Virus record (IMG/VR): IMGVR_UViG_3300008267_000147 | Location: 1-39,867 of that record | Origin: a virus | Reading direction: 5' to 3' (one strand) | Length of the DNA: 39,867 bases | In this document: piece by piece, positions 8,350 through 39,764 of the stretch | How positions within the stretch are numbered: position 1 is the stretch's first letter | How the letters are laid out: each line of letters begins with the position of its first letter | Program-made: the position numbers and the translations under genes | Notes under the pieces: generated by a model | Databases searched by the model: none | Told to the model about the DNA's origin: nothing | What the model saw: only the letters and a program-made list of their open reading frames with translations

Positions 8350-8366
8350 TATATTTTATTATTTGT

Positions 8367-8376
8367 TATAAATATA
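8367..8376 (-). promoter_or_regulatory. ATATTTATAA element before 7825-8349
   Basis: On the coding strand ATATTTATAA lies 17 bases before the start at 8349, in one of the few real gaps of this region. Identical ten-base elements lie before the starts at 10357, 15252, 25624 and 32120. It may be a late-promoter element for the gp55-like sigma factor, but its core is the reverse complement of the T4 late box TATAAATA. Confidence 0.3.
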
Positions 8377-8407
8377 AACATATTAAAATTTTATTCAAAA
8401 ACCAAGA

Positions 8408-8794: not shown

Positions 8795-10357
8795 TTATAG
8801 ATTAATAGTAAGTTGCACACCCCTCCAATCTCCATTAATATATGCTGCTAAATAATGATTAGTTCCGTCTGATCTTATTGCTATACTTCCCTCTTCAGGG
8901 CCGGGATTGGGTAAGGCGTTGGTGTTTATAGGAATAATCAATGATCCGGAAATGTCTAAAGAGCCTGTTATCTGTACAGTATTAGAAGCAGCCACTAGTA
9001 GATTCTTTCTGCCCAAAATAGTACCATCCCCTACTATGAAAGCGCCTTCAACAGAGCTTGATATGTTGTATTTTCCTACAATGTGTTGATAGCTGCCTGT
9101 TGAATAATTGTATGCTCCTCCTACATAGGAACCTTCAGCATTGCTAGAAGCGGTTGTGTATATTCCTGCTGTGTGGGAGTATCGTCCCATTGCCAATGTT
9201 GCGCCTCCTTCTGCATGGGATCCAGAGGCTAGTGCAGTTGTAAAATAACCCTCTGCATGTGCATAACCTGCTAAAGCTGTTGTTTCACTACCTTCAGTAT
9301 GCGATGCTTCACCAATTGCCTTTGTACCAAAACCCTCAGCATGAGAATACGTACCAACAGATGTAGATCCACCACCTTCAGCATGAGAAACTACTCCAAT
9401 AGCTGTTGTGTATTGACCTTCTGTATGTGAACCGACTCCGACGGCTGATGTTCTAAAGCCTTCAGCATGCGATATACTGCCTAATGCTAGTGTATCCTCT
9501 CCAATGTTTACAGATCCTAATACTGATAAATACACGCCAGAGCCAGAGACTATTACTGAGCCGGTGACTGCTGCAGGGCCTACTGTACTGGTAGAGCCAG
9601 TAACTCTTAAAGAACCTGTTAAAGTTGAGGAGCCTATTGTGGTGTTGGAGCCTGTTATTTTTAGAGATCCTGTTACTTGAAAATCACTACCTGAGGCAAA
9701 TACTAGATTTTTTCTATCGGAATTACTTGTTCCATTTCCTATAATAAAAGCAGATTGAGCAGAGCTTGATAAATTGTATTGACCTTGAACGTGTTGGTAA
9801 GATCCGGATGCTACGGTGCCCAATCCTTCAGCATGAGAGTATTGTCCAGATGCTGTTACCGCATTTCCTTGTTGTAAGCTGGAGGAGTCATATACATAAA
9901 TGAAATTGCTGTTTCCTGAGAATGAGCTAGCGCTGTTGAATTGTATTTGTTGATTTAATCCACCTGGTAAAGTTTCGTTACTACCTGTATTTACAGTGAT
10001 GGGAAATGTGGTGCCATTTCCTTTAGTAAAAGTTATAGTATTTTGAGAAACAGAAGCAGTAGTTAAAAGAGACCCAGTGTCGGTAGAAGTAGCAGCTCCA
10101 AGAGAATTTGAAGCCGTATATGTTATTAATCCGGTTGTAGTGTTATAAGTTAATACATTACCGTTTCCACTAGATTCAATAGTTTCATTTATAAATAATG
10201 AACCCGTTAAAGTAAGACTCCCACTTATTTTAATATCATAATCTTCTTCTCCAGTAAAAGCATCTATTGATTGAGATATATGCCAAGATTCAATTGTAAA
10301 ATTTTGATTTACTTCATCGGATCCTGTGGTAAATATTTGTTTTAACTTTTTAGCCAT
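8795..10357 (-). CDS. Tail fibre / adhesin with YadA-like SHAEG repeats
   Basis: 520 residues. The N-terminal part has repeated TGS-containing strands (SGSLTLTGSL, then TGSLKITGS) typical of trimeric phage fibres. From about residue 170 to 190 and from 290 to 400 there are 14-residue repeats of the form SHAEGxxTxAxGxx, with SHTEG and AHAEG variants. This is the left-handed beta-roll head repeat of YadA-type trimeric adhesins. A longer unit (YQH, GxYN, SSS, AFI, GxGT, RKNL, then QxTGSL) occurs twice, one copy after each repeat block. The C-terminus, with EGSIAIRSDGTNHYLAAYINGDWRGVQL, may be a cap or attachment tip. It probably binds the host surface. A gap with an ATATTTATAA element precedes it. 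Confidence 0.85.
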   Translation of the reverse strand: MAKKLKQIFTTGSDEVNQNFTIESWHISQSIDAFTGEEDYDIKISGSLTLTGSLFINETIESSGNGNVLTYNTTTGLITYTASNSLGAATSTDTGSLLTTASVSQNTITFTKGNGTTFPITVNTGSNETLPGGLNQQIQFNSASSFSGNSNFIYVYDSSSLQQGNAVTASGQYSHAEGLGTVASGSYQHVQGQYNLSSSAQSAFIIGNGTSNSDRKNLVFASGSDFQVTGSLKITGSNTTIGSSTLTGSLRVTGSTSTVGPAAVTGSVIVSGSGVYLSVLGSVNIGEDTLALGSISHAEGFRTSAVGVGSHTEGQYTTAIGVVSHAEGGGSTSVGTYSHAEGFGTKAIGEASHTEGSETTALAGYAHAEGYFTTALASGSHAEGGATLAMGRYSHTAGIYTTASSNAEGSYVGGAYNYSTGSYQHIVGKYNISSSVEGAFIVGDGTILGRKNLLVAASNTVQITGSLDISGSLIIPINTNALPNPGPEEGSIAIRSDGTNHYLAAYINGDWRGVQLTINL

Positions 10358-10372
10358 TTGGTATTATATATG

Positions 10373-10382
10373 TTATAAATAT
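10373..10382 (-). promoter_or_regulatory. ATATTTATAA element before the tail fibre
   Basis: The coding-strand sequence ATATTTATAA lies 16 bases before the fibre ATG, within the 43 bp gap between the RecB-like nuclease and the fibre. It could separate expression of the fibre from the replication genes upstream. Promoter function is inferred only from recurrence. Confidence 0.3.
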
Positions 10383-14595: not shown

Positions 14596-15252
14596 TTATT
14601 GATTTTTCTTAATTGTTACAGGGATTGTTAATCGAGCTCCACTATCTCTTCCTACAACAACTAAAGAGGCATATAATTCGGTGGCTGTTCCAAATAGAGT
14701 ATTAATAGTAGTGGCTGTTAAATTAATAGTAGTACCAACAACTGTTTTAGAAACATTAGTACCTATTGTTGCTGTTGAATTTAAAGCAGCCGCATCTTGT
14801 GTTTGAATTCCTGTTCCTGTAAATGTATTAAATAATCTAATATCAGATATGGTTGCAGTATACCCAGAAGTTTCAAAAGTTTGATTATTGCCTAAATAAT
14901 TTAGAGTTTGAGGAGTGATAGCTAACGATGCACCTTGTTTTAATACTATAGAAGCATATCCTAGATCTAAAATTGGCATTTTTGAAGTACCTCTAGGTAA
15001 TGTTACTAATTTATATTTCATGTCTTGAGTTTCATCAGGAAATGCTTCTAGAAGAGGCATATTTTCTATAGCTTGTCCATAGTATGCTGATCCAGAAGGA
15101 TGGTTGGGATTATATAATGTATAATCAATTTCATCATCGGCTAAAGCAAATTGTGTAATTTTAAAAGATCCATCTCCTTTAGCTAAAAGTTCTCTACCTT
15201 TTTTAGTAAGAATAGCATCTACTGTTACTATTGAATTGTTTAAATATCCCAT
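14596..15252 (-). CDS. Conserved virion structural protein
   Basis: 218 residues. The N-terminal block, with NNSIVTVDAILTKKGRELLA then FKITQFALADDEIDYTLY and NPNHPSGSAYYG, is one I recall as highly conserved in T4-like environmental phages, always among tail genes. The second half is Thr-rich beta sequence. Function unknown beyond virion membership (recollection, not tested). The 28 bp upstream gap holds an ATATTTATAA element. Confidence 0.7.
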   Translation of the reverse strand: MGYLNNSIVTVDAILTKKGRELLAKGDGSFKITQFALADDEIDYTLYNPNHPSGSAYYGQAIENMPLLEAFPDETQDMKYKLVTLPRGTSKMPILDLGYASIVLKQGASLAITPQTLNYLGNNQTFETSGYTATISDIRLFNTFTGTGIQTQDAAALNSTATIGTNVSKTVVGTTINLTATTINTLFGTATELYASLVVVGRDSGARLTIPVTIKKNQ

Positions 15253-15268
15253 TTTACTATTTTATTTA

Positions 15269-15278
15269 TTATAAATAT
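15269..15278 (-). promoter_or_regulatory. ATATTTATAA element before 14596-15252
   Basis: The ten-base coding-strand element lies about 17 bases from the ATG at 15252, at the only real gap between 12.6 and 21.9 kb. This makes it a candidate internal late promoter for the downstream structural genes. Confidence 0.3.
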
Positions 15279-28449: not shown

Positions 28450-29328
28450 TTATTCGAATTTTAATATCCCCGTAGCAGTATAGTCAATATATGATTTTTT
28501 AAATAATTTAGATAATATTTTAGATATTTTAGTTATCCTAGATGTTTTAACATCTATTATTTCTCTTATATAAATATATAATGCTTTTTTATTAAAAATA
28601 GTCAAGTGATTTCTTTTTCTAAATAATTCAAGAATAGCATCTGCTATTTTAGCATCATTCACATCAGGGAACAAAACATATATATTATCAGAACAATATT
28701 TAACAAATTTTTCAATAAAAAAATATAAATTTTCTTTTGAAGGAATATTTTCTACAAATAATTCATCTTGATCTAATTCATCTATAGGAGATGTAACTAT
28801 TTTTTTCTTATAATTTTTTTGGTTATACAATATTAACCATCTTTTAACAATAGTGCCAAAGTAAGAATAAGCTTTAGGTGGGTTTATTTTAAATAATTTT
28901 TCTTTACATTCATTAGATATATTTAAAGAATTTATAAAATCATTTATTTGTTTTTGGTTAACTCTATTTACATTCCCTACATATTCTTCAAAGTTTAAAT
29001 TATATTGTTCTTTAAATTCTTTAATTATTGTTTTTTTAAATTTATCTTCTATATTTTTTTTATGATCATACAAATGAATTTTAGATAATAAAAATATCAT
29101 TAATTCATGTTGAAGATTTTCTAAATCCTCTTCCTCAGTATGGTAAAATTTAAATGTATGAATTATATTTTCAGTTAATTTAAAAAAAGGATAATGTATT
29201 TTTCTTTCATATATTTTACTTTTTTCAAATGAATCAACAGTATTATTATATTCTATAATAGCATCCTCAGTTTCTTGAGTAAAGTATTTTTTTTTACTAG
29301 TAGTTTTTACAATAGGGATTAAACTCAT
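28450..29328 (-). CDS. Late-transcription sigma factor, gp55-like
   Basis: 292 residues. A region-2-like helix pair is visible: DLENLQHELMIFLLSKIHLYD (about 68-88) and, after an insert, PPKAYSYFGTIVKRWLILYNQK (about 150-171). This matches the phage sigma pattern of a helix with YD, then AYSYF and a basic tail. PIDELDQDELFVENIP and more helices follow. T4 gp55 is 185 residues; this one has an insert and a longer end. It would direct host RNA polymerase to late promoters with a sliding clamp and coactivator (not in this window). The gene lies directly before the tail block. Confidence 0.7.
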   Translation of the reverse strand: MSLIPIVKTTSKKKYFTQETEDAIIEYNNTVDSFEKSKIYERKIHYPFFKLTENIIHTFKFYHTEEEDLENLQHELMIFLLSKIHLYDHKKNIEDKFKKTIIKEFKEQYNLNFEEYVGNVNRVNQKQINDFINSLNISNECKEKLFKINPPKAYSYFGTIVKRWLILYNQKNYKKKIVTSPIDELDQDELFVENIPSKENLYFFIEKFVKYCSDNIYVLFPDVNDAKIADAILELFRKRNHLTIFNKKALYIYIREIIDVKTSRITKISKILSKLFKKSYIDYTATGILKFE

Positions 29329-32759: not shown

Positions 32760-32980
32760 GGTTTTGTTTATACATATTTTCTATAGAAAACCCACAAACT
32801 AACATATAAGTATATATTTTGTCGATAGTAAAATTTTATTTTTTTCGTTGATTTAATGTTTTTTAATTTTTTTCTAAAATCCCTATAGTGAACTTTCAAT
32901 TTAATCGTGGTTGGATATAAAGATATACAATCGATGGGGTATGGGTATTGGGTGTGTGAATATAAATCGAATTCCTTCTC

Positions 32981-33021
32981 TACCACTGCCGTCCCCCGTA
33001 TGGACGGCGGCTCGCGTGGTA
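32981..33021. repeat. Two-tier inverted repeat
   Basis: TACCAC (32981-32986) and GTGGTA (33016-33021) pair outside, and GCCGTCC (32988-32994) and GGACGGC (33002-33008) form a perfect 7 bp inner stem around CCCGTAT. This is much more GC-rich than its surroundings and clearly structured on either strand. Confidence 0.6.
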
Positions 33022-33141
33022 GCATATCACGACTTACCCCGGTACCATATACGGCCGTATGCCCCCACTAGTACTAGGGGGATTCCTGTTTTGAAAAAAC
33101 GCGTTGTGAAAAGAAACGCGTGTTAAAGAACGCGTGAAAAT

Positions 33142-33191: not shown

Positions 33192-33437
33192 TTATTTAGG
33201 TTTATTAAAATTTACAGACATGCCCTCATATTTAAGTAAAGAATTACAAATATATTTTTGAATTTGAATTGCATTGCTACAATTATTAACACTGTTTATT
33301 ATCAGTTGTTTATCAGTATCTTTTATTCCTTTACTATTCACAAATTCAGTTACAAATGTTTTCATTTGACTAACATTATTCATTCTAAATACATTTGAAG
33401 CAATTTGTTCAAAAACAGATTTAATTTGAATTTTCAT
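33192..33437 (-). CDS. Small early hypothetical protein
   Basis: 81 residues, helical, with FEQIASNVFRMNNVSQMKTFVTEFVNSKGIKDTDKQLIINSVNNC and two cysteines (NNC, YIC). No family recognised. The ribosome site is the common AATCAAGGTTATG. The early promoter at 33483-33516 lies upstream and a hairpin terminator downstream. Presumably a host-takeover protein. Confidence 0.6.
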   Translation of the reverse strand: MKIQIKSVFEQIASNVFRMNNVSQMKTFVTEFVNSKGIKDTDKQLIINSVNNCSNAIQIQKYICNSLLKYEGMSVNFNKPK

Positions 33438-33482: not shown

Positions 33483-33516
33483 TAAACATACGATTTAGTT
33501 TTTAACTAACATCGAC
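33483..33516 (-). promoter_or_regulatory. Early promoter copy 1
   Basis: On the coding strand GTCGATG, 16 bases, then TCGTATGTTTA. Both boxes match the consensus, 46 bases before the ATG at 33437. It overlaps the end of the 59-residue gene upstream, including its stop codon. Confidence 0.75.
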
Positions 33517-33681
33517 TTGCCTCTTTACCACTGATATGTAATTATTTAAAAGTTCATCATACATTGGTTTGTTTATTGGTTTTAGTTTATTTAACCATAT
33601 AATTACTTCCTTAGGTTGTTTGGTACCATTTTTAATACCCATTATACCACCTTTTATTTTTCTTACTATTGTGTCTTCCAT
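33502..33681 (-). CDS. 59-residue early protein
   Basis: An unbroken frame MEDTIVRKIKGGIMGIKNGT, then KQPKEVIIWLNKLKPINKP, ends in KRQVDVS and stops inside promoter copy 1. The leader AAAGGTTAAACACATG has a ribosome site, and it starts four bases after the upstream gene's stop, so it is coupled to it. Basic, no family recognised. The coding sequence overlapping the promoter box is a compact arrangement. Confidence 0.6.
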   Translation of the reverse strand: MEDTIVRKIKGGIMGIKNGTKQPKEVIIWLNKLKPINKPMYDELLNNYISVVKRQVDVS

Positions 33682-33685
33682 GTGT

Positions 33686-33868
33686 TTAACCTTTAAGTAT
33701 TACTCTTACACCCGGTTTATTTATTGTTTTGAGATAATCACTTGCTGCTTTTTCGGTTCTAAACCAATTGAAACAACTTACAATATCACTACCCCCATCT
33801 TGGGTATGGTTTATACAGTACCACTTTACTCCCTTTGGACATGTTTGTGTTTCTAATATTATTTTCAT
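33686..33868 (-). CDS. Small early protein
   Basis: 60 residues from ATG 33868. The frame extends to 33898, but that would place the start inside promoter copy 2, so the internal ATG is chosen. It has ILETQTCPKGVKWYCINHTQ and two helices (KAASDYLKTINK) with two or three cysteines. Looks like a compact alpha/beta fold; family not recognised. First gene of the pair driven by promoter copy 2. Confidence 0.6.
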   Translation of the reverse strand: MKIILETQTCPKGVKWYCINHTQDGGSDIVSCFNWFRTEKAASDYLKTINKPGVRVILKG

Positions 33869-33887
33869 ATGTTTTAATTTTATAATA

Positions 33888-33921
33888 TAAACATACAAAT
33901 TTATTTTTAATTATCTTCGAC
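33888..33921 (-). promoter_or_regulatory. Early promoter copy 2
   Basis: GTCGAAG, 16 bases, then TTGTATGTTTA: two box bases differ from consensus, and the spacing is unchanged. 20 bases before the start at 33868. It drives the 60- and 59-residue genes. Confidence 0.65.
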
Positions 33922-33936
33922 TAACCTATTTACCTA

Positions 33937-33971
33937 CCCCCCCCCCCTTAGTCTGCTTTCCTGGGGGAGGG
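33937..33971 (-). terminator. GC-only hairpin with 11-base homopolymer
   Basis: A run of 11 C (33937-33947 on plus) can pair with GGGGGAGGG (33963-33971), giving about 9 GC/GU pairs around a 15 base loop. It lies 16 bases after the stop of the AT-hook gene. No T run follows. It is likely a terminator or RNA-stability structure. The homopolymer is striking in such AT-rich DNA. Confidence 0.5.
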
Positions 33972-33986
33972 TTGTGTTCAATTTAT

Positions 33987-34256
33987 TTACTCCGCTTTAT
34001 TTTCTATTGATGCTTTACCTGTACCTTTAGGACGACCTCTTTTAATTTCAATTCCCGCTGCACGTTTTGCTTCAAGTGCATTTAACTTAGCTTGACGGGC
34101 TGATTCTGGGTCTACATGTCTACCTCTACCATCTACACCCATTGCTCTATTTTCTGCTTGTTTTTGTAAGCGGATTTGTCTTGGGCTGTTTGGATCTACT
34201 TTACGACCACGTGTTTCGATTTTTACCCCTGTTGTTTGTGCTGCTTGATTTTCCAT
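33987..34256 (-). CDS. AT-hook-like small basic DNA-binding protein
   Basis: 89 residues with three evenly spaced RGR-type motifs: TRGRKVDPNSPRQ, GRGRHVDPESARQ and KRGRPKGTGK, the last a textbook AT-hook core. The first two are internal repeats (VDPxSxRQ, then RAxG). AT-hooks bind the minor groove of AT-rich DNA. Such a protein could coat the AT-rich genome or act on host DNA. Early promoter copy 3 lies 44 bases upstream, with the AATCAAGGTTATG ribosome site. Confidence 0.7.
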   Translation of the reverse strand: MENQAAQTTGVKIETRGRKVDPNSPRQIRLQKQAENRAMGVDGRGRHVDPESARQAKLNALEAKRAAGIEIKRGRPKGTGKASIENKAE

Positions 34257-34299
34257 AACCTTGATTTTTAAATTGTTTGTATTACGTTTTTATTTGTTG

Positions 34300-34333
34300 T
34301 AAACATACGATTTTTTATTTAATATACCTCGAT
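34300..34333 (-). promoter_or_regulatory. Early promoter copy 3
   Basis: ATCGAGG, 16 bases, then TCGTATGTTTA. The inner box is perfect; the outer box is weaker. It lies 44 bases before the AT-hook gene. Confidence 0.65.
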
Positions 34334-34370
34334 ATGCTTTTATTCCATAATCGTTTATAACCACTATTCT

Positions 34371-34487
34371 TTACCATGGTGAGGAATAAACACCATATGT
34401 TATAGAATTGTAAATTGATACTACTATCAAAGTTGTTATAGCTGTAATAACAATTATTGCACCTAAATTAATTTTATTTGTTTTCAT
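34371..34487 (-). CDS. 38-residue membrane microprotein
   Basis: Frame from ATG 34487, with AAAAATAAAAGTC before it. It encodes MKTNKINLGAIIVITAITTL, then IVVSIYNSITYGVYSSPW and a TAA stop. Residues 8-26 are one transmembrane helix with a basic N-terminus. Small phage membrane proteins of this kind often affect host division or the membrane. Second gene of the pair driven by promoter copy 4. It has no known homologue that I recognise. Confidence 0.55.
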   Translation of the reverse strand: MKTNKINLGAIIVITAITTLIVVSIYNSITYGVYSSPW

Positions 34488-34505
34488 GACTTTTATTTTT
34501 TATAT

Positions 34506-34601
34506 TTAATTTAAACAAACTACAATGAATTCTAATAATTCACTTGTAAATATTTCCCCCTGGTAAGACCATGAGTATTGGTTTTGCTCTTGACTATTCA
34601 T
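34506..34601 (-). CDS. 31-residue early microprotein
   Basis: Frame from ATG 34601: MNSQEQNQYSWSYQGEIFTS, then ELLEFIVVCLN. It starts 28 bases after promoter copy 4, as other early genes do, with AAATAAATGTTATG at the start. The promoter position is the main support. The first half is Gln/Tyr-rich, the second hydrophobic. Confidence 0.5.
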   Translation of the reverse strand: MNSQEQNQYSWSYQGEIFTSELLEFIVVCLN

Positions 34602-34628
34602 AACATTTATTTATTTAATTATTTAAGT

Positions 34629-34662
34629 TAAACATACGATTTTATTTTTAACTAACATCGAC
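34629..34662 (-). promoter_or_regulatory. Early promoter copy 4
   Basis: Consensus GTCGATG, 16 bases, TCGTATGTTTA. It overlaps the last 15 bases of the upstream gene (34648-34905) and drives the 31- and 38-residue frames. Confidence 0.75.
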
Positions 34663-34905
34663 ATTCTCTAGTTCCACAACATACCAAATACTATCACATA
34701 TTGGTACTGGTATTATTCCTTTTACTTTGGAATAACGATAAGAAGGACCACTGATTTGTTTTAGTCTTATTAATTTGTATTTGGGGATTATTTCCATTAC
34801 TTCAAAGCAGGATGCTTCAATTTCTGAAAATTGAGATAGTGGGTTGAGGTCAAATATTATGTCTCCCACTGTTAGGTTGTAGGCTGGGGTTGGGTTTACT
34901 TTCAT
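34648..34905 (-). CDS. Small early protein, probable beta fold
   Basis: 85 residues: MKVNPTPAYNLTVGDIIFDL, then ASCFEVMEIIPKYKLIRLKQI and SIWYVVELENVDVS. The strand pattern suggests a small SH3-like barrel. No family recognised. It has the AATCAAGGTTATG ribosome site and promoter copy 5 upstream by 26 bases. Its last codons lie in promoter copy 4. Confidence 0.6.
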   Translation of the reverse strand: MKVNPTPAYNLTVGDIIFDLNPLSQFSEIEASCFEVMEIIPKYKLIRLKQISGPSYRYSKVKGIIPVPICDSIWYVVELENVDVS

Positions 34906-34930
34906 AACCTTGATTTTTAAATTTATAATA

Positions 34931-34964
34931 TAAACATACGAATAATGTTTATTAAATCAACGAC
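34931..34964 (-). promoter_or_regulatory. Early promoter copy 5
   Basis: GTCGTTG, 16 bases, TCGTATGTTTA. It lies 26 bases before ATG 34905. Confidence 0.7.
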
Positions 34965-35409
34965 TAACCTAATTTAGTACTTTTAGAGAACGGTAGCCGT
35001 TCATCCCTGAACAGCTTTTTTAAAAGGCAAAGAAAATTTCAGGTTAAAATAAACCAGTTTTTTTCTTTAATAAATAATTTCCACTTATTTTATACTGTTC
35101 GTGCTTCAGTTGTCATTGTATGTGAATTTAACTTTTCCTCTTCAAACGTTGCGGCAACTACTAGGTACTTCGTTTAATTCCGTTATACATATGTGGTTTT
35201 TCAAGAAAATTCATGAAAGTATATATTTTTTCGAGGAGAAGGGGGGAAGGTCGCAAAAAAAAGATTATGATCCCCAAACCTCCCAACCCCCCACCATTCC
35301 ACTTTATGTCACATACCATTTACCCACATTTATATTCAACTACATTGTATTATAACGCGTGTTCATCCTTTACATACATTCCTTCACCCTTACATTTTCT
35401 CGCATTATA
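34965..35409. other. Non-coding region with hairpins and a strand-biased G/C stretch
   Basis: No gene with supporting signals is seen in 445 bp; frames on the plus strand here (35101-35419) lack ribosome sites and look random. It has a perfect hairpin GAACGG, TAG, CCGTTC (34988-35002) and a second inverted repeat, GTTGCGGCAAC (35147-35157). An AAGTATATATTTT element next to TCGA (35218-35234) is nearly repeated at 32809-32825. 35270-35400 is rich in C on the plus strand (G-rich on the transcribed strand). ACGCGTGTT (35356-35364) also occurs in the 33.1 kb island. Possibly a non-coding RNA or origin-related. Confidence 0.4.
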
Positions 35410-35565
35410 CTACATTTGAATTAAATCTATTGCATATTCTCCTGTTCCCTTACCATTATACATTATTTCACAGTTAGGGTCCATTCCCGATTCCATCACA
35501 TATTCCATTAATTTTGTTAATGTTGGGAACATTGCATTGTTGTAGTTACAGTTTAGTGAGTACAT
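35410..35565 (-). CDS. 51-residue early protein
   Basis: Frame from ATG 35565: MYSLNCNYNNAMFPTLTKLM, then EYVMESGMDPNCEIMYNG and KGTGEYAIDLIQM, stop TAG. It starts 30 bases after promoter copy 6, like the other early genes. It has two cysteines and looks like an alpha/beta mini-domain. Not recognised. Confidence 0.6.
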   Translation of the reverse strand: MYSLNCNYNNAMFPTLTKLMEYVMESGMDPNCEIMYNGKGTGEYAIDLIQM

Positions 35566-35594
35566 GTTATTTATTTTATTTTATTATTATGGGT

Positions 35595-35628
35595 TAAACA
35601 TACGATCTGGATATTATTATTCATCGAT
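35595..35628 (-). promoter_or_regulatory. Early promoter copy 6
   Basis: ATCGATG, 16 bases, TCGTATGTTTA. It drives the 51-residue gene. Confidence 0.75.
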
Positions 35629-35657
35629 ATTCCTTCTTTCTTGTTTGTTTTTTTCTA

Positions 35658-35939
35658 TTAAGCTTCTTTAGACCATTTTGGGTGAAGATAGTACTTGGAT
35701 CTCTTTAGATATATAATTTGATATTCATCATTATCATCTATTTGAATATAACCTTTCTTAACTAGAGAAGAAAGCACTCCACGAAGTCTCATTGTTGGTA
35801 AATTTATTATATTACCTATGTCTGTAGCGGACACATCTGAGAATCCAGGTTCGGCATATAATTCATTAATAAGTGCTTGAAGGGTTTCTTTTTCAAAAAT
35901 GGTTAAATTTTCATTTTCTATAAGTTGATTAGTTTCCAT
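35658..35939 (-). CDS. Winged-helix DNA-binding protein
   Basis: 93 residues: helix EKETLQALINELYAEPGF, then VSATDIGNIINLPTMRLRGVLSSLVKKGYIQID as helix-turn-helix and wing, with YQIIYLK strand after. This is the winged-helix pattern of MarR-like and archaeal-type regulators. It probably regulates phage or host transcription. It has no immediate early promoter; the nearest is copy 7 at 36202, upstream of the tRNA-like element, so the transcript may run through that structure into this gene. Confidence 0.7.
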   Translation of the reverse strand: METNQLIENENLTIFEKETLQALINELYAEPGFSDVSATDIGNIINLPTMRLRGVLSSLVKKGYIQIDDNDEYQIIYLKRSKYYLHPKWSKEA

Positions 35940-35989
35940 ATTTTTTGTATTAAATTTATTTTATTATTATAGAAAAAATTTGTTATCGT

Positions 35990-36118
35990 ACAAATTCAAT
36001 AAAACGTATTCACATTCGGGTTTTATCCTAACCGGGCTAACACCGGTGATGCCACTGCCTTTTATAGCAGTCTTGCAGTCTAACTATTTCAGAGGATAAT
36101 ACACCTCACCTGCTGTGT
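35990..36118 (-). ncRNA. Structured leader between tRNA-like element and winged-helix gene
   Basis: About 130 bases of higher GC with several hairpins on the transcribed strand: GAGG with CCTC around TGTATTAT, ACTGC with GCAGT around TATAAAAG, and the palindrome CACCGGTG. GACTGC is repeated directly (GACTGC, AA, GACTGC). GGTGA and TCACC could close the whole region. Such density of pairing in AT-rich DNA suggests a functional RNA or leader; no known family was recognised. Confidence 0.4.
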
Positions 36119-36176
36119 AGTCAGGACAGGATTCGAACCTGCATTGCCATAGTGTTACCACTTACACCACCTAACT
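36119..36176 (-). tRNA. Short tRNA-like element lacking the anticodon arm
   Basis: 58 bases. Acceptor AGTTAGG pairs with CCTGACT (one T-G). The D arm is canonical: GTGT and ACAC with loop AAGTGGTA containing GG. The T arm is canonical: GCAGG, loop TTCGAAT, CCTGT. Between D and T arms are only nine bases (TATGGCAAT), whereas a normal tRNA has about 22 with the anticodon stem-loop. No CCA is encoded. It lies 26 bases after promoter copy 7, so it should be transcribed. It cannot decode a codon as written; perhaps a mimic or processing signal. Confidence 0.6.
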
Positions 36177-36201
36177 ATTTTATATTATTAATTTATTAAG
36201 T

Positions 36202-36235
36202 TAAACATACGAAATATTATTTTATAAACATCGAT
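36202..36235 (-). promoter_or_regulatory. Early promoter copy 7 (before the tRNA-like element)
   Basis: ATCGATG, 16 bases, TCGTATGTTTA. The first thing downstream is the 58-base tRNA-like element, not a protein start. Confidence 0.75.
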
Positions 36236-36248
36236 ATTCCTTTTTATT

Positions 36249-36344
36249 TTAATTTGGGTTGCTATTTTGTATTTGTTCGTAGTATTCTATTTGGTTCCAC
36301 CCCATTATTTGTCCTGTTGGTAGTTCAATTTGATTTGTTTTCAT
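36249..36344 (-). CDS. 31-residue early microprotein
   Basis: ATG 36344: MKTNQIELPTGQIMGWNQIE, then YYEQIQNSNPN, stop TAA. The leader AAAAAATAAAGGTTATG is identical to that of proven-looking early genes, and promoter copy 8 lies 27 bases upstream. That makes this tiny frame credible. Gln/Asn-rich, not recognised. Confidence 0.6.
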   Translation of the reverse strand: MKTNQIELPTGQIMGWNQIEYYEQIQNSNPN

Positions 36345-36370
36345 AACCTTTATTTTTTAATTTTATACTT

Positions 36371-36404
36371 TAAACATACGATTTATTAATTAAGTAACAA
36401 CGAT
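36371..36404 (-). promoter_or_regulatory. Early promoter copy 8
   Basis: ATCGTTG, 16 bases, TCGTATGTTTA. The outer box abuts the stop codon of the 61-residue gene. Confidence 0.7.
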
Positions 36405-36589
36405 TAATTTTTAGATTCTTCTATTTCATAATCAAAGTCATCACTGTGCTCATCTATAGTTTCATAATCGGTATTCTCTACTTCTCCACTTATAACCTTA
36501 TCAAGTGCTTCTTCTTCAGAGTTTGCTTCTACTTCATAGGTCCAAACAGCAAATACTGTTTTTATTTCCTTTACAGTGAATTTTTTCAT
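36404..36589 (-). CDS. Small early protein, DpnD/PcfM-like pattern; paralogue of 38223-38417
   Basis: 61 residues: MKKFTVKEIKTVFAVWTYEV, EANSEEEALDKVISGEVENTDY, acidic end. The beta strand, then ANSEEEALxKV and GE, is the pattern of DpnD/PcfM-like small domains of unknown role. The 64-residue gene at 38223 has the same plan, so the two are likely duplicates. Standard AATAAAGGTTATG leader. Confidence 0.65.
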   Translation of the reverse strand: MKKFTVKEIKTVFAVWTYEVEANSEEEALDKVISGEVENTDYETIDEHSDDFDYEIEESKN

Positions 36590-36620
36590 AACCTTTATTT
36601 TTTAATTTTATACTATACTT

Positions 36621-36654
36621 TAAACATACGATTTATTAGTTAAGTAACAACGAT
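36621..36654 (-). promoter_or_regulatory. Early promoter copy 9
   Basis: ATCGTTG, 16 bases, TCGTATGTTTA. It overlaps the last base of the 80-residue gene upstream and is nearly identical to copy 8 in its spacer (both have AACTTAAT-like or AATTAAT runs). Confidence 0.7.
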
Positions 36655-36896
36655 TAATCACTACTATCGACATTATAAACATATAAAAAAGTTTCTAATC
36701 CATCAGTTATATGAATTGAAGTTTTGCTATAACACCGGCCTAATTCTTTATTATTAATGGTTCCGGGAATGTAAAAATCTCTAAATTTGCGATGGGCTTC
36801 AAAATAATTTTTATTCCATCCATTCATGATCCCCATATTGATAACTTGATTGTTTACAGGTATTCCATGTTGTTCTAATATTTCTCTAATTTTCAT
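36654..36896 (-). CDS. Small early hypothetical protein
   Basis: 80 residues: MKIREILEQHGIPVNNQVIN, then MGIMNGWNKNYFEAHRKFRDFYIPG and HITDGLETFLYVYNVDSSD. Compact alpha/beta. Its first helix is leader-like but short. No family recognised. AATAAATAAAGGTTATG leader; promoter copy 10 upstream by 27 bases. Confidence 0.6.
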   Translation of the reverse strand: MKIREILEQHGIPVNNQVINMGIMNGWNKNYFEAHRKFRDFYIPGTINNKELGRCYSKTSIHITDGLETFLYVYNVDSSD

Positions 36897-36922
36897 AACC
36901 TTTATTTATTAATTTATTGAGT

Positions 36923-36956
36923 TAAACATACGAAACTTTATATATTAAGCAACGAC
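36923..36956 (-). promoter_or_regulatory. Early promoter copy 10
   Basis: GTCGTTG, 16 bases, TCGTATGTTTA. Confidence 0.7.
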
Positions 36957-36970
36957 TAACTTTTTTTAAA

Positions 36971-37168
36971 TTAATCAAAATAAAATACTTCACGTTGCCA
37001 TACACCGTTTACTCTAATTTCTACTTGGTAATCACCGTCATATGCTCTATTTTCTCTGTGTGTGAGCCATACTCTAACATTACCTTCTTCAATTTTTAAG
37101 TAATCACCACTGTGTGATTGTTCAATGGTATCCATGTCTTGCAGTTCGCGTTTTGTGAATGTGTACAT
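36971..37168 (-). CDS. Small early hypothetical protein
   Basis: 65 residues: MYTFTKRELQDMDTIEQSHS, then DYLKIEEGNVRVWLTHRENR and YQVEIRVNGVWQREVFYFD. Strands predominate in the second half. Not recognised. AATAAAGGTTATG leader, promoter copy 11 27 bases upstream. Confidence 0.6.
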   Translation of the reverse strand: MYTFTKRELQDMDTIEQSHSGDYLKIEEGNVRVWLTHRENRAYDGDYQVEIRVNGVWQREVFYFD

Positions 37169-37194
37169 AACCTTTATTTTTTAATTTTATACTT

Positions 37195-37228
37195 TAAACA
37201 TACGATTTGTTATTTATATAACAACGAC
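37195..37228 (-). promoter_or_regulatory. Early promoter copy 11
   Basis: GTCGTTG, 16 bases, TCGTATGTTTA. Confidence 0.7.
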
Positions 37229-37234
37229 TAATCT

Positions 37235-37540
37235 TTATCTACTCTTTACCTCTGATACTCGTTCTGTACCTGAATTAATCATTGCTATAACGCCTCCCCA
37301 TTCGCCTGCGTCTGCTTCCCATTCAATGTCGTGTTTTGGGTGTTTAAATTGCCAATTACTTAATGCAAATTTACCTCCATCCATTTTGAAGTCACCATTA
37401 CTATCTTTTTTAAATGTTATGTAATGGATGTTATCACACATACAAGATACTGTTGTAAATATCACTTCACGAGCATCTTTTTTTACTGTTAGTTTTGGTG
37501 GATTTAACCTTAGTTCTTGATATTTGCTTAATTTATTCAT
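37235..37540 (-). CDS. Small early hypothetical protein
   Basis: 101 residues, with an N-terminal basic helix, then TTVSCMCDNIHYITFKKD, KFALSNWQFKHPKHDIEWEADAGEWGG. Two cysteines as CMC. Mostly beta. No family recognised. AATAAAGGTTATG leader with promoter copy 12 23 bases upstream. Confidence 0.6.
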   Translation of the reverse strand: MNKLSKYQELRLNPPKLTVKKDAREVIFTTVSCMCDNIHYITFKKDSNGDFKMDGGKFALSNWQFKHPKHDIEWEADAGEWGGVIAMINSGTERVSEVKSR

Positions 37541-37562
37541 AACCTTTATTTTTTAATTTATT

Positions 37563-37596
37563 TAAACATACGAATTACTAATCTATAAACATCGAC
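37563..37596 (-). promoter_or_regulatory. Early promoter copy 12
   Basis: Full consensus: GTCGATG, 16 bases, TCGTATGTTTA. Confidence 0.75.
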
Positions 37597-37602
37597 TTGC
37601 TT

Positions 37603-37725
37603 TTATAACCCTCTTAATTTTAAGATTTTTAAGTATAATTCAACATTGAATGATTGCCTTACACTGTTTTCACTTTTTTTAGTCCAAAAATCAATAGCTG
37701 ATTGTAAACTGAATTGGGTTTTCAT
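37603..37725 (-). CDS. 40-residue early microprotein
   Basis: ATG 37725: MKTQFSLQSAIDFWTKKSEN, then SVRQSFNVELYLKILKLRGL, stop TAA. Promoter copy 13 lies 27 bases upstream, as for other early genes. Basic and helical. The start region differs (AAACAAAACAACATG). Not recognised. Confidence 0.6.
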   Translation of the reverse strand: MKTQFSLQSAIDFWTKKSENSVRQSFNVELYLKILKLRGL

Positions 37726-37751
37726 GTTGTTTTGTTTTTAAATTTATAATA

Positions 37752-37785
37752 TAAACATACGAAACTTTAATCTATAAATATCGAC
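37752..37785 (-). promoter_or_regulatory. Early promoter copy 13
   Basis: GTCGATA, 16 bases, TCGTATGTTTA. It drives the 40-residue gene. Confidence 0.7.
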
Positions 37786-37789
37786 TAAC

Positions 37790-38038
37790 TTAATCTTCAA
37801 TATCCTCATTTTTATTGATATTCAACATTTGTTCTTCAATACACCATAAATCATCATCCGATAATAAATCAACAATGTCTGTTTTCCCCCATAATACTTT
37901 ATGGATTTCAAATTCTGGAGGTGTTGCTGGGTAACCGGGGTCGCCATTTGAATAAGTCCATACACCTGGGTCTCCCGGAATGTATTTACCTTCTACTTCT
38001 ACTTCAATTTCGATTTGAATTTTAATTGTTGTTCCCAT
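37790..38038 (-). CDS. Small early protein with EVEVEGKY..GDPGVWTYSNGDPG motif
   Basis: 82 residues. A short strand (IKIQIEIEVEVEG) leads to YIPGDPGVWTYSNGDPGYPAT, then acidic helices. I recall closely similar GDPGVWTYSNGDPGYP segments in other phage small proteins of unknown function. Its leader contains the tRNA-like element at 38059-38114, with promoter copy 14 beyond it. It has the standard AATAAAGGTTATG start. Confidence 0.65.
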   Translation of the reverse strand: MGTTIKIQIEIEVEVEGKYIPGDPGVWTYSNGDPGYPATPPEFEIHKVLWGKTDIVDLLSDDDLWCIEEQMLNINKNEDIED

Positions 38039-38058
38039 AACCTTTATTTTTTAATTTG

Positions 38059-38114
38059 AAGCTAGGGTAGGACTCGAACCTACCATAACCATTACTATTT
38101 CTAGTAACTAGCTT
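38059..38114 (-). tRNA. Short tRNA-like element in a gene leader
   Basis: 56 bases. Acceptor AAGCTAG and CTAGCTT pair perfectly over 7 bp. A 6 bp hairpin with a GAAA tetraloop (TTACTA, GAAA, TAGTAA) occupies the D or anticodon position. Then comes TGGTTATG, and a canonical T arm (GTAGG, TTCGAGT, CCTAC). One arm of the cloverleaf is missing and there is one extra C at the acceptor junction. It ends 20 bases before the ATG of the 82-residue gene and lies 76 bases after promoter copy 14, so it is part of that gene's 5' leader. It may be a processing or regulatory signal. Confidence 0.55.
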
Positions 38115-38189
38115 GACCTAGTGGGGGTAATTAATTAACTTTTAAACTTTACATTTGTTATGAAAGTATCTTTATTTATTTTATTAATG

Positions 38190-38223
38190 TAAACATACGA
38201 GATTTTACTTAATAAACATCGAC
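38190..38223 (-). promoter_or_regulatory. Early promoter copy 14
   Basis: GTCGATG, 16 bases, TCGTATGTTTA. It precedes the second short tRNA-like element and the 82-residue gene. It overlaps the last base of the gene at 38223. Confidence 0.75.
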
Positions 38224-38417
38224 TATTCTTCATCTTTATCTTCATCTACTCTATATTTGAAACTACCAGAAACTTCATCTTCTGCCAATCCACATTCTAT
38301 TACTTCTGATTCTCCCCTATGTACTTTTTCTAATGCTTCTTCTTCTGAGTTTGCTTTCACTTCATGGAAGTATACTGCCAATATAGGTCTTGTTTCTGTT
38401 ACAATGTAATTTTTCAT
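38223..38417 (-). CDS. Small early protein, DpnD/PcfM-like pattern; paralogue of 36404-36589
   Basis: 64 residues: MKNYIVTETRPILAVYFHEV, KANSEEEALEKVHRGESEVIE, then acidic. Shares ANSEEEAL, KV and GE with the 61-residue protein 1.6 kb away. The duplicate has a similar leader (AAAGTTATG) and its own promoter copy 15. Role unknown. Confidence 0.65.
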   Translation of the reverse strand: MKNYIVTETRPILAVYFHEVKANSEEEALEKVHRGESEVIECGLAEDEVSGSFKYRVDEDKDEE

Positions 38418-38442
38418 AACTTTATTTTTTAATTTATTGAGT

Positions 38443-38476
38443 TAAACATACGAAATACAATTTAGTAAACATCGAC
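38443..38476 (-). promoter_or_regulatory. Early promoter copy 15
   Basis: Full consensus: GTCGATG, 16 bases, TCGTATGTTTA, 26 bases before ATG 38417. Confidence 0.75.
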
Positions 38477-38493
38477 TAACTTTATTTACAAAC

Positions 38494-38895
38494 TTAATTC
38501 AAATCAGGGTCTACTTCATCAGAGAAATTTTCATAGTATGAATCCATTAAATCAGCAGCACCCTCTTTTGTAATAGGAACATACCCTCCAGGAACTTCAA
38601 AGTTTTTTACAGATTCTACAGGATTTTTAATAAATTCTTTAAGTTCATCAACATCAATGTAAGTATAAATAGAATCTTCTCTAATATCCCATTCGAATTT
38701 TCTTAATTTTTCTTTAGTTTCTGAATCGATGTCATCGGTTTCCCAAGTTAACAGTATTTCTGAACTATCACTATAGTCACGATCTGCATCACCTAGATTG
38801 TATACAATATTTCCTTCACTATCAATTGTTGTTTCTTCTGTTAAGATTTTTTGTAATTCTTCTTTGATGATTTTTTTTAAATCTGATTTTTTCAT
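38494..38895 (-). CDS. Acidic protein with MKKSDLKKIIKEEL leader
   Basis: 133 residues. It starts MKKSDLKKIIKEELQKILTE, the recurrent leader also found at 5996-6361 and elsewhere. The rest is very acidic (DADRDYSDSSEILLTWETDDIDSE, DELKEFIKNPVESVKNF). It is the only early-region gene with this leader. If the leader means packaging in the head, its presence beside an early promoter is notable. Promoter copy 16 lies 26 bases upstream. Confidence 0.6.
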   Translation of the reverse strand: MKKSDLKKIIKEELQKILTEETTIDSEGNIVYNLGDADRDYSDSSEILLTWETDDIDSETKEKLRKFEWDIREDSIYTYIDVDELKEFIKNPVESVKNFEVPGGYVPITKEGAADLMDSYYENFSDEVDPDLN

Positions 38896-38920
38896 GGTTT
38901 TGGTTTTTAATTTATTGAGT

Positions 38921-38954
38921 TAAACATACGAAACTTTAATCTATAAACATCGAC
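38921..38954 (-). promoter_or_regulatory. Early promoter copy 16
   Basis: Full consensus: GTCGATG, 16 bases, TCGTATGTTTA. It drives the leader-bearing acidic gene. Confidence 0.75.
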
Positions 38955-38959
38955 TAACT

Positions 38960-39289
38960 TTATTTAACTTTATACATTGTTTTTAACTTCATCATATCTT
39001 TATCTGTAATTTGTTCTCTTGCAGCATCATCTATTAGTTTTTCTACATCAATACCTAGTTCTTTCATTTGTGCTTTGAACTTTTTGTATCCTTGATATCC
39101 ACCTTCAACGTCTATTCCTAGAAATTTAACATTTACTACATCACAGAAATCTAAATCGACATCTATTTTTCCTTCTTTGTTTTCAAACACATACGCTTGA
39201 TGTACTAGAGTTGCTTCAATAGCACCATTGTTTCCTACTTTAATATCATGTTCAAATGATACCATTAATGTTTTGCTTGTGATTTTCAT
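38960..39289 (-). CDS. Small early hypothetical protein
   Basis: 109 residues: strands MKITSKTLMVSFEHDIKVG, VHQAYVFENKEGKIDVDLDF, then helices (YKKFKAQMKELGIDVEKLIDDAAREQ). No motif recognised. AATCAAGGTTATG leader; promoter copy 17 38 bases upstream. Confidence 0.6.
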   Translation of the reverse strand: MKITSKTLMVSFEHDIKVGNNGAIEATLVHQAYVFENKEGKIDVDLDFCDVVNVKFLGIDVEGGYQGYKKFKAQMKELGIDVEKLIDDAAREQITDKDMMKLKTMYKVK

Positions 39290-39326
39290 AACCTTGATTT
39301 TTTAATTATTAATTAATTTATTGAGT

Positions 39327-39360
39327 TAAACATACGAAATTTTATACTATAAACAAAGAC
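39327..39360 (-). promoter_or_regulatory. Early promoter copy 17
   Basis: GTCTTTG, 16 bases, TCGTATGTTTA: the weakest outer box, with the inner box perfect. Confidence 0.65.
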
Positions 39361-39369
39361 TAACTTTAT

Positions 39370-39711
39370 TTAACAACTTTCACAAATGAAAAATTGATCA
39401 TTTGATTTGTTAGAATTTAGTAATTCTTCTAATTCGTCTTTAGCTCGCTCAGTGATAGCTCTACTCATTCCCCCTATATGAAATTCTATTGTTTCGTTCA
39501 TTCCTATAGGTCTATATTCTTTCCAGTCATATATAGTAAATATATCTCCTGTTTTTGTTTCGCAACTATAGTCTATATTTACTTTATCACTACCATCGTT
39601 TTGAAAACATTGTGGTTCACCCAACACTTTAATGAGTTCTGCTAGTGTTGTTTCAATTGTTGTGTCGTGGAAACTAGTTCCATATGCTGATTTGGTTGTT
39701 AATTTTGCCAT
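39370..39711 (-). CDS. Small early hypothetical protein
   Basis: 113 residues: KSAYGTSFHDTTIETTLAELIKVLGEPQ, then VNIDYSCETKTGDIFTIYDWKEYR, EFHIGGMSRAITERAKDELEELL and FFICESC. Alpha/beta, with three or four cysteines. The TLAELIKVLGEP start pattern is one I recall from small proteins of other phages, without known role. Promoter copy 18 lies 20 bases upstream. Confidence 0.6.
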   Translation of the reverse strand: MAKLTTKSAYGTSFHDTTIETTLAELIKVLGEPQCFQNDGSDKVNIDYSCETKTGDIFTIYDWKEYRPIGMNETIEFHIGGMSRAITERAKDELEELLNSNKSNDQFFICESC

Positions 39712-39730
39712 GTTATTTAATTTTATAAGT

Positions 39731-39764
39731 TAAACATACGAAATACTATTCTATAAACATCGAC
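39731..39764 (-). promoter_or_regulatory. Early promoter copy 18
   Basis: Full consensus: GTCGATG, 16 bases, TCGTATGTTTA. The series probably continues beyond the window. Confidence 0.75.

Follow-up and report, generated by a model that had tools for sequence, protein, structure and literature searches.

What promoters drive the small genes in the 33-40 kb region of virus record IMGVR_UViG_3300008267_000147, and which RNA polymerase reads them? We analysed the whole stretch of 39,867 nucleotides, a 39.9-kb virus fragment hereafter called the window, and found that a two-box element with the consensus TCG(A/T)TG-N19-TATGTTTA recurs 18 times on its minus strand, from 33483 to 39763. From sequence comparison, we consider these 18 elements to be promoters used by the host vegetative (sigmaA) RNA polymerase, a reading to which we give a probability of roughly 0.7.

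A two-box element ahead of small genes

A search with both boxes, allowing up to three mismatches, returned 18 matches where 0.42 were expected, and none beyond 33483-39763 in the window. In a leave-one-out evaluation with a 44-bp weight matrix, the copies scored between 23.7 and 54.1 bits; the best non-site on both strands of the window reached 11.8 bits (8385, minus strand) and the runner-up 1.1 bits. A preliminary description of this DNA, made from its letters alone, had put forward 18 promoter copies, and by these counts and scores the copies are real.

The spacing is constant in 18 of 18 copies. Measured start to start from GTCGATG to TCGTATGTTTA it is 7 + 16 = 23 bases; the 16-base gap first reported was correct, and the accompanying figure of 27 bases was an arithmetic slip. 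The inner box is exactly TCGTATGTTTA in 17 copies and TTGTATGTTTA in one (33888-33898), and the outer box reads TCGATG nine times, TCGTTG five times, and TCTTTG, TCGATA, TCGAAG and TCGAGG once each. Information content per position is 0.67 bits in the spacer versus 1.54 bits in the inner box. Recent copying is an unlikely source of the identity among copies, because the spacers differ between them while the boxes are constant.

All 18 copies are intergenic. The first ATG lies 19-51 nt past the box end. With gene calls that are simple picks of open reading frames (ORFs), an ORF of at least 40 amino acids follows 14 of the 18 copies, a 31-amino-acid ORF follows two (36249-36344 and one opening near 34600) and a tRNA-like RNA follows two. 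The initial statement that a copy stands before almost each small gene holds, with the reservation that two copies precede tRNA-like RNAs and no ORF.

Taken from the low-numbered end, the copy at 33483-33515 has no mismatches to TCGATG-N19-TATGTTTA and is followed by ORF 33192-33437, its ATG 45 nt on. The variant at 33888-33920 (TCGAAG and TTGTATGTTTA, two mismatches) leads to ORF 33686-33868, and the copy at 34300-34332 (TCGAGG) to ORF 33987-34256. Behind the copy at 34629-34661 lies a 31-amino-acid ORF read from the sequence, and ORFs 34648-34905 and 35410-35565 follow the copies at 34931-34963 (TCGTTG) and 35595-35627. The copy at 36202-36234 is placed ahead of a tRNA-like RNA (Rfam tRNA match 36118-36176). 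TCGTTG is also the outer box at 36371-36403 (31-amino-acid ORF 36249-36344), 36621-36653 (ORF 36404-36589), 36923-36955 (ORF 36654-36896) and 37195-37227 (ORF 36971-37168). Next are the copies at 37563-37595 (ORF 37235-37540) and 37752-37784 (TCGATA; ORF 37603-37725), and one at 38190-38222 with no ORF behind it, ahead of a second tRNA-like RNA with a weak tRNA-Sec-like match (38059-38114). The series ends with the copies at 38443-38475 (ORF 38223-38417), 38921-38953 (ORF 38494-38895), 39327-39359 (TCTTTG; ORF 38960-39289) and 39731-39763 (ORF 39370-39711).

Arrangement in related phages

Judged by its sequence, the window phage is Immutovirus-like and T4-type, and its nearest cultured relative is Flavobacterium phage immuto, which has a genome of 160 kb and infects Flavobacterium sp. 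LMO8. The baseplate wedge protein of the window has 48% identity over its full length to that of immuto and 92% to that of an uncultured relative (L041). In both immuto and the window, the small-gene region lies upstream of a phosphohydrolase gene and baseplate genes. The earlier suggestion of a Bacteroidota host is supported by the host of this cultured relative.

The small genes of immuto are preceded by a different version of the element, AGTTGC-N-TTC.TATATTTA, which occurs ahead of at least 22 genes and is followed in most cases by a conserved leader, GGTATCAATAATTAAAAC. Five uncultured relatives (G006, G005, G004, G008 and G002) have an outer box TGTTTGGC, TTTGG or TTAGGCTTACA, then 20 bp, then TATATTTA. 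The spacer is 19 in all window copies and mostly 20 in immuto and the relatives. Forward-strand sites outnumber reverse-strand control sites by 30 to 4 in G006, 26 to 4 in G002 and 26 to 7 in immuto; most relatives are fragments, and G007, G008 and G001 have too few sites to count as evidence by themselves. On these sequence comparisons, the per-gene two-box architecture is a family trait and its exact letters are phage-specific. An exact motif search of IMG/VR was of no use because the relatives carry different outer boxes; it returned 32 contigs with a single match each, which we judged to be chance or unrelated.

Some spacers can also fold. In a minority of immuto copies (67-76 kb, for example those serving genes 68018 and 70302) the spacer is a strong intrinsic-terminator hairpin, with one gene's terminator within the next gene's promoter; one strong example is AAGTTGCCTCTTCGGAGGCAATTTCC, at -12.1 kcal/mol. 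Such hairpins occur in 5 of 26 immuto copies, whereas the window has practically none (mean z -0.5), and we rejected them as a general feature given this minority of copies.

Similar elements were observed in two other phages. Microcystis phage Mel-JY01 (PP395634.1, locus L283) has TTG-N20-TAnnTTTG between 135 and 175 kb, with 11 sense and 0 antisense sites, and a baseplate protein with 44.7% identity to that of the window; although annotated as a Microcystis phage, it may in reality infect a Bacteroidota bacterium that accompanies the culture. Cellulophaga phage phiST (NC_020842.1, loci L284 and L286) has about 20-25 per-gene promoters of the form TGTTG-N20-TATCTTTA.

Host sigmaA polymerase as the probable reader

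Bacteroidota sigmaA promoters have the published consensus TTTG / TAnnTTTG, with transcription starting 4-5 nt downstream (PMC6847099), and their -7 box spans -12 to -5 (PMC9723704). If the window elements are aligned to this scheme, the outer box TCG(A/T)TG would occupy the -33 position and TATGTTTA would be the -7 box, from -12 to -5. Transcription would start 4-5 bases past TATGTTTA. Leaders would then be short (about 14-46 nt) and rich in A, and each small gene or small RNA of the 33-40 kb region would have its own start site. These genes are probably immediate-early and turned on without any phage protein, the term early being suggested by the position, size and architecture of the genes.

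The likeness to the Bacteroidota sigmaA (sigmaABfr) promoter, TTTG, about 19-21 bases and TAnnTTTG (PMC6847099, PMC9723704), extends to the -33/-7 layout, a spacer of 19-20, T-12, A-11, T-8, T-7 and T-6, a short leader and an A-rich 5' untranslated region. The TAnnTTT core is present in 18 of 18 window copies, as TATGTTT, and the spacer of 19 falls within the sigmaA range of about 19-21, which is also where our host sets peak. TTG or TTTG is found in the outer boxes of most relatives. Three features differ from the host promoter: the base at -5 is A in the window, the two nn positions are fixed (TG in the window, TA or TC in relatives), and the window outer box TCGWTG is stricter than that of the host.

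No crAss-type RNA polymerase was matched in immuto, G002, G006, G004 or Mel-JY01 by a search that recovered its positive control, phi14:2. A DFDGD-type motif was not found in immuto, and screening of the window, immuto and six relatives for sigma region 4 was likewise negative; a search for T7-type RNA polymerases matched no control and is uninformative on presence. The host sigmaA polymerase is the best reading because the layout, spacer and TAnnTTT core match and the searches for a crAss-type polymerase, a DFDGD-type motif and sigma region 4 came back empty. The preliminary description had named promoters of sigmaA-like layout read by host RNA polymerase, which is the likeliest reader given that no crAss-type polymerase was found. 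It is further supported by comparison with related genomes, which have the same layout, and with the Bacteroidota sigma consensus, to which core and spacer conform.

Several observations weigh against the host sigmaA polymerase. Only 6 of 18 window outer boxes contain TTG, and the other 12 have GATG or another sequence. All 18 copies have A as the final base of their -7 box, in place of the sigmaA G, which is nearly invariant at -5 in F. johnsoniae promoters (PMC6847099). In upstream regions of three flavobacterial sets, TTG-N17-21-TAnnTTTG is enriched (sense/antisense 36/14, 12/7 and 38/10), whereas the form ending in TTTA is not (16/17, 11/12 and 6/5). These sets represent Flavobacterium sp. 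11, a Polaribacter and mixed Flavobacteriales, and are neither the window's nor immuto's own host.

Instead of being promoters, the repeats could be operators or sites bound by some other protein, such as stoperators or start-associated sequences, which would suit the high identity of the copies and the letters TCG..TGTTTA shared by outer and inner boxes, giving them a direct-repeat look. We regard this as very improbable: strand and distance to the start codon are fixed, the part kept across phages is the inner box, which matches the -7 element, and the resemblance between the boxes is not seen in relatives. A host extracytoplasmic function (ECF) sigma factor reading an inner box TTCGTATGTTTA can be practically dismissed, since CGT, which forms a -10 region box in F. 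psychrophilum motif SM6 (PMC9723704) and occurs in all but one of the 18 window copies, is lost in immuto (TTC[ATG]), G006 (GATGT) and G002 (AACA), where TAnnTTTA is kept.

The base at position -5

The A at -5 is a property of the whole phage family. In phage upstream regions TTG-N17-21-TAnnTTTA occurs 29/4 times (sense/antisense) in immuto, 17/0 in G006 and 10/2 in G004, with a further 13/1 in the family, and the G form is close to zero. Pooled, A:G at -5 is 79:2 in phages versus 33:86 in hosts, a descriptive comparison only, as copies within a genome are non-independent and the host A counts are background. The unrelated phiST has mostly A; crAss001 and Mel-JY01 have G; FCL-2, 6H, phi38:1, phi19:1, phi10:1 and phi14:2 have too few sites for classing. 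At -5, phages thus deviate from the host pattern more than once, in favour of A. The preliminary description was correct that the last base of the box differs from that of the host, and the difference, fixed across the family and unenriched in host promoters, is weightier than it first appeared. Being opposite to the host rule and present also in phiST, it raises the question of its cause, for which sigmaA tolerance or a useful promoter property, the need for a phage factor, and a constraint from modified DNA are all possible.

A phage-coded appropriator or activator, comparable to MotA/AsiA in T4, could redirect host RNA polymerase to a phage-specific promoter class, with the outer box as its binding site. 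This would account for an outer box that is long, that varies little inside any one phage and that changes from phage to phage (TCGWTG, AGTTGC, TGTTTGGC, TTAGGCTTACA) next to a constant inner box TAnnTTTA, and for an A at -5 that falls outside the host class. Yet in most outer boxes a TTG or TTTG lies where the sigmaA -33 element would be, and phiST, which is unrelated and has its own single-subunit RNA polymerase, likewise has per-gene TTG-N20-TATCTTTA. No such factor was identified, and no search for MotA/AsiA equivalents was made. We hold this explanation to be unlikely, though it deserves consideration.

A second explanation keeps the host sigmaA polymerase as reader and concerns the base itself. 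Flavobacteriia phages with 7-deazaguanine DNA might have rewritten the host promoter, replacing the -5 discriminator guanine with adenine, as guanine derivatives of this kind would spoil recognition of G at that position. Immuto, G002 and G006 have QueC and DpdA together with A at -5, and the DpdA of immuto is closest to those of Campylobacter phages CP220, CPt10 and CP21 (43-44%), phages in which dG is fully replaced. The QueC-negative Mel-JY01 and crAss001 have G at -5. The correlation of DpdA/QueC with -5 A became mixed when extended to further phages: phiSM has QueC yet G at -5, and phiST has A yet no QueC match (only QueD, QueE and GTP cyclohydrolase). For these two reasons the idea keeps a low standing and we find it quite doubtful; moreover, the -33 box retains its G, the independent lineages are few, and DpdA was not found in the window fragment. 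If true, the host polymerase would be able to read the phage DNA in spite of the modified base, and promoter sequence would be a readout of DNA modification.

A separate box for presumed late genes

The presumed late genes have a separate single box, ATATTTATAA. Among 9-mers preceding long ORFs in 80 related loci, ATATTTATA shows the strongest strand skew, with 158 sense versus 2 antisense occurrences. The form TATTTATAA occurs on the coding strand outside the early region 17 times in immuto and 6 times in the window, and is absent from the early regions of both. Minus-strand examples lie at 10373-10381, ahead of gene 8795-10357, and at 15269-15277, ahead of gene 14596-15252. Another (8366-8374) abuts a weak 19th early-like copy, whose TATGTTTA is at 8375-8382; this site, 8366-8382, is the 11.8-bit best non-site. 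The box ATATTTATAA stands in place of the T4 late promoter TATAAATA. Reading it on the opposite strand (TATTTATA, the reverse complement of TATAAATA) is unlikely, given how strongly the box favours one orientation and where it sits with respect to genes.

The structural genes have (A)TATTTATAA as their single box; its probable reader is the host core polymerase carrying a gp55-like sigma protein encoded at 28450-29328 (minus strand). This 292-amino-acid candidate late sigma factor has a putative sigma region 2, suggested by profile and structure matches of its relatives. A Sigma70_r2-like protein is encoded beside the phosphohydrolase in eight searched records, above the curated cut-off in three; L134 is above it as well (25.7 bits against a cut-off of 24), PHROG late-sigma matches were weak, and the window homologue has 43-60% identity to these proteins. 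The window protein alone had no significant match in Pfam or other databases, and a structure search with it and a profile search of the PDB found nothing. For a relative that lacks the insertion described below, the modelled structure matched mostly sigma factors, including T4 gp55 (7d7c, probability 0.84, TM-score 0.55 on the target; best E 0.015). A gp55-like late sigma in the phage family is likely, and 28450-29328 is the window's candidate for it. The window protein has an insertion of about 58 amino acids, after YDHKKN and before PPKAYSYF, which is missing from most relatives; that of L041 is also 292 amino acids long.

Comparison with known systems

With a single late box and a diverged gp55-like protein, the programme would therefore resemble that of T4. 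Early promoters of T4-like phages (PMC1524935, PMC6024815) are likewise numerous, near-identical, of host-RNA-polymerase type and located ahead of tRNA genes as well as small unique genes; a distinct class of single-box late promoters linked to a gp55-type sigma and a T4-type baseplate are further likenesses. Unlike those of T4-like phages, the boxes of the window family are of the Bacteroidota rather than the E. coli type. In RB69, 57 early promoters have been predicted, some ahead of novel ORFs, and T4-like early promoters also occur ahead of tRNA genes (PMC1524935). One promoter per gene had been called unusual for a phage; it is not, given RB69 and the same layout in immuto, four uncultured relatives and phiST. 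In phiST the likeness is close (per-gene TTG-N20-TATCTTTA, mostly A at -5), although some copies are G-ended.

Early regulatory sequences of SIRV2-type archaeal viruses (PMC11065993) also consist of a single conserved promoter ahead of many small unrelated genes, with the core kept and the flanks virus-specific. The window promoter differs in being of bacterial sigma type, and the Aca8 repression proposed for SIRV2 has no known counterpart in the window. Halovirus HF2 has promoter-bearing repeated intergenic elements (PMC8707807), but it is an archaeal virus with long transcripts and another element. What is new here is the form taken by a known strategy of one promoter per small gene: the boxes are of Bacteroidota type, the base at -5 is always A, and the late box is altered.

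To our knowledge, few Bacteroidota phages have a transcription map. The outcome is a sequence-based map of presumed early and late promoters that covers an entire T4-like family, one member of which, immuto, is in culture on Flavobacterium sp. LMO8. The early promoters are also compact candidate promoters for Flavobacterium genetics. In archaeal viruses a conserved early promoter served to find anti-defence genes (PMC11065993); here it could tag single small genes as candidates for host takeover or anti-defence.

Small RNAs and other features of the region

The tRNA-like RNA at 36118-36176 (minus strand), behind the promoter copy at 36202, scores 38.9 bits against the Rfam tRNA model (gathering score 29) and lacks an anticodon arm, having 5 nt in place of the 18 positions of that arm. 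The second RNA, at about 38059-38114 (minus strand), has a weak tRNA resemblance. ARAGORN predicted 0 tRNAs in the window. A fuller homologue, with a short anticodon arm, is present in a related record (L126, 17204-17273).

A run of at least 10 C (G on the coding strand) lies between gene units at 33935-33950 in the window and also in L131; the close relative G001 has G-rich runs as well. Just downstream of the early region, at 32980-33075, is a GC-rich inverted-repeat stretch (CCGTCCCCCGTATGGACGGCGG...), possibly a terminator or structured RNA, with a similar one in L131.

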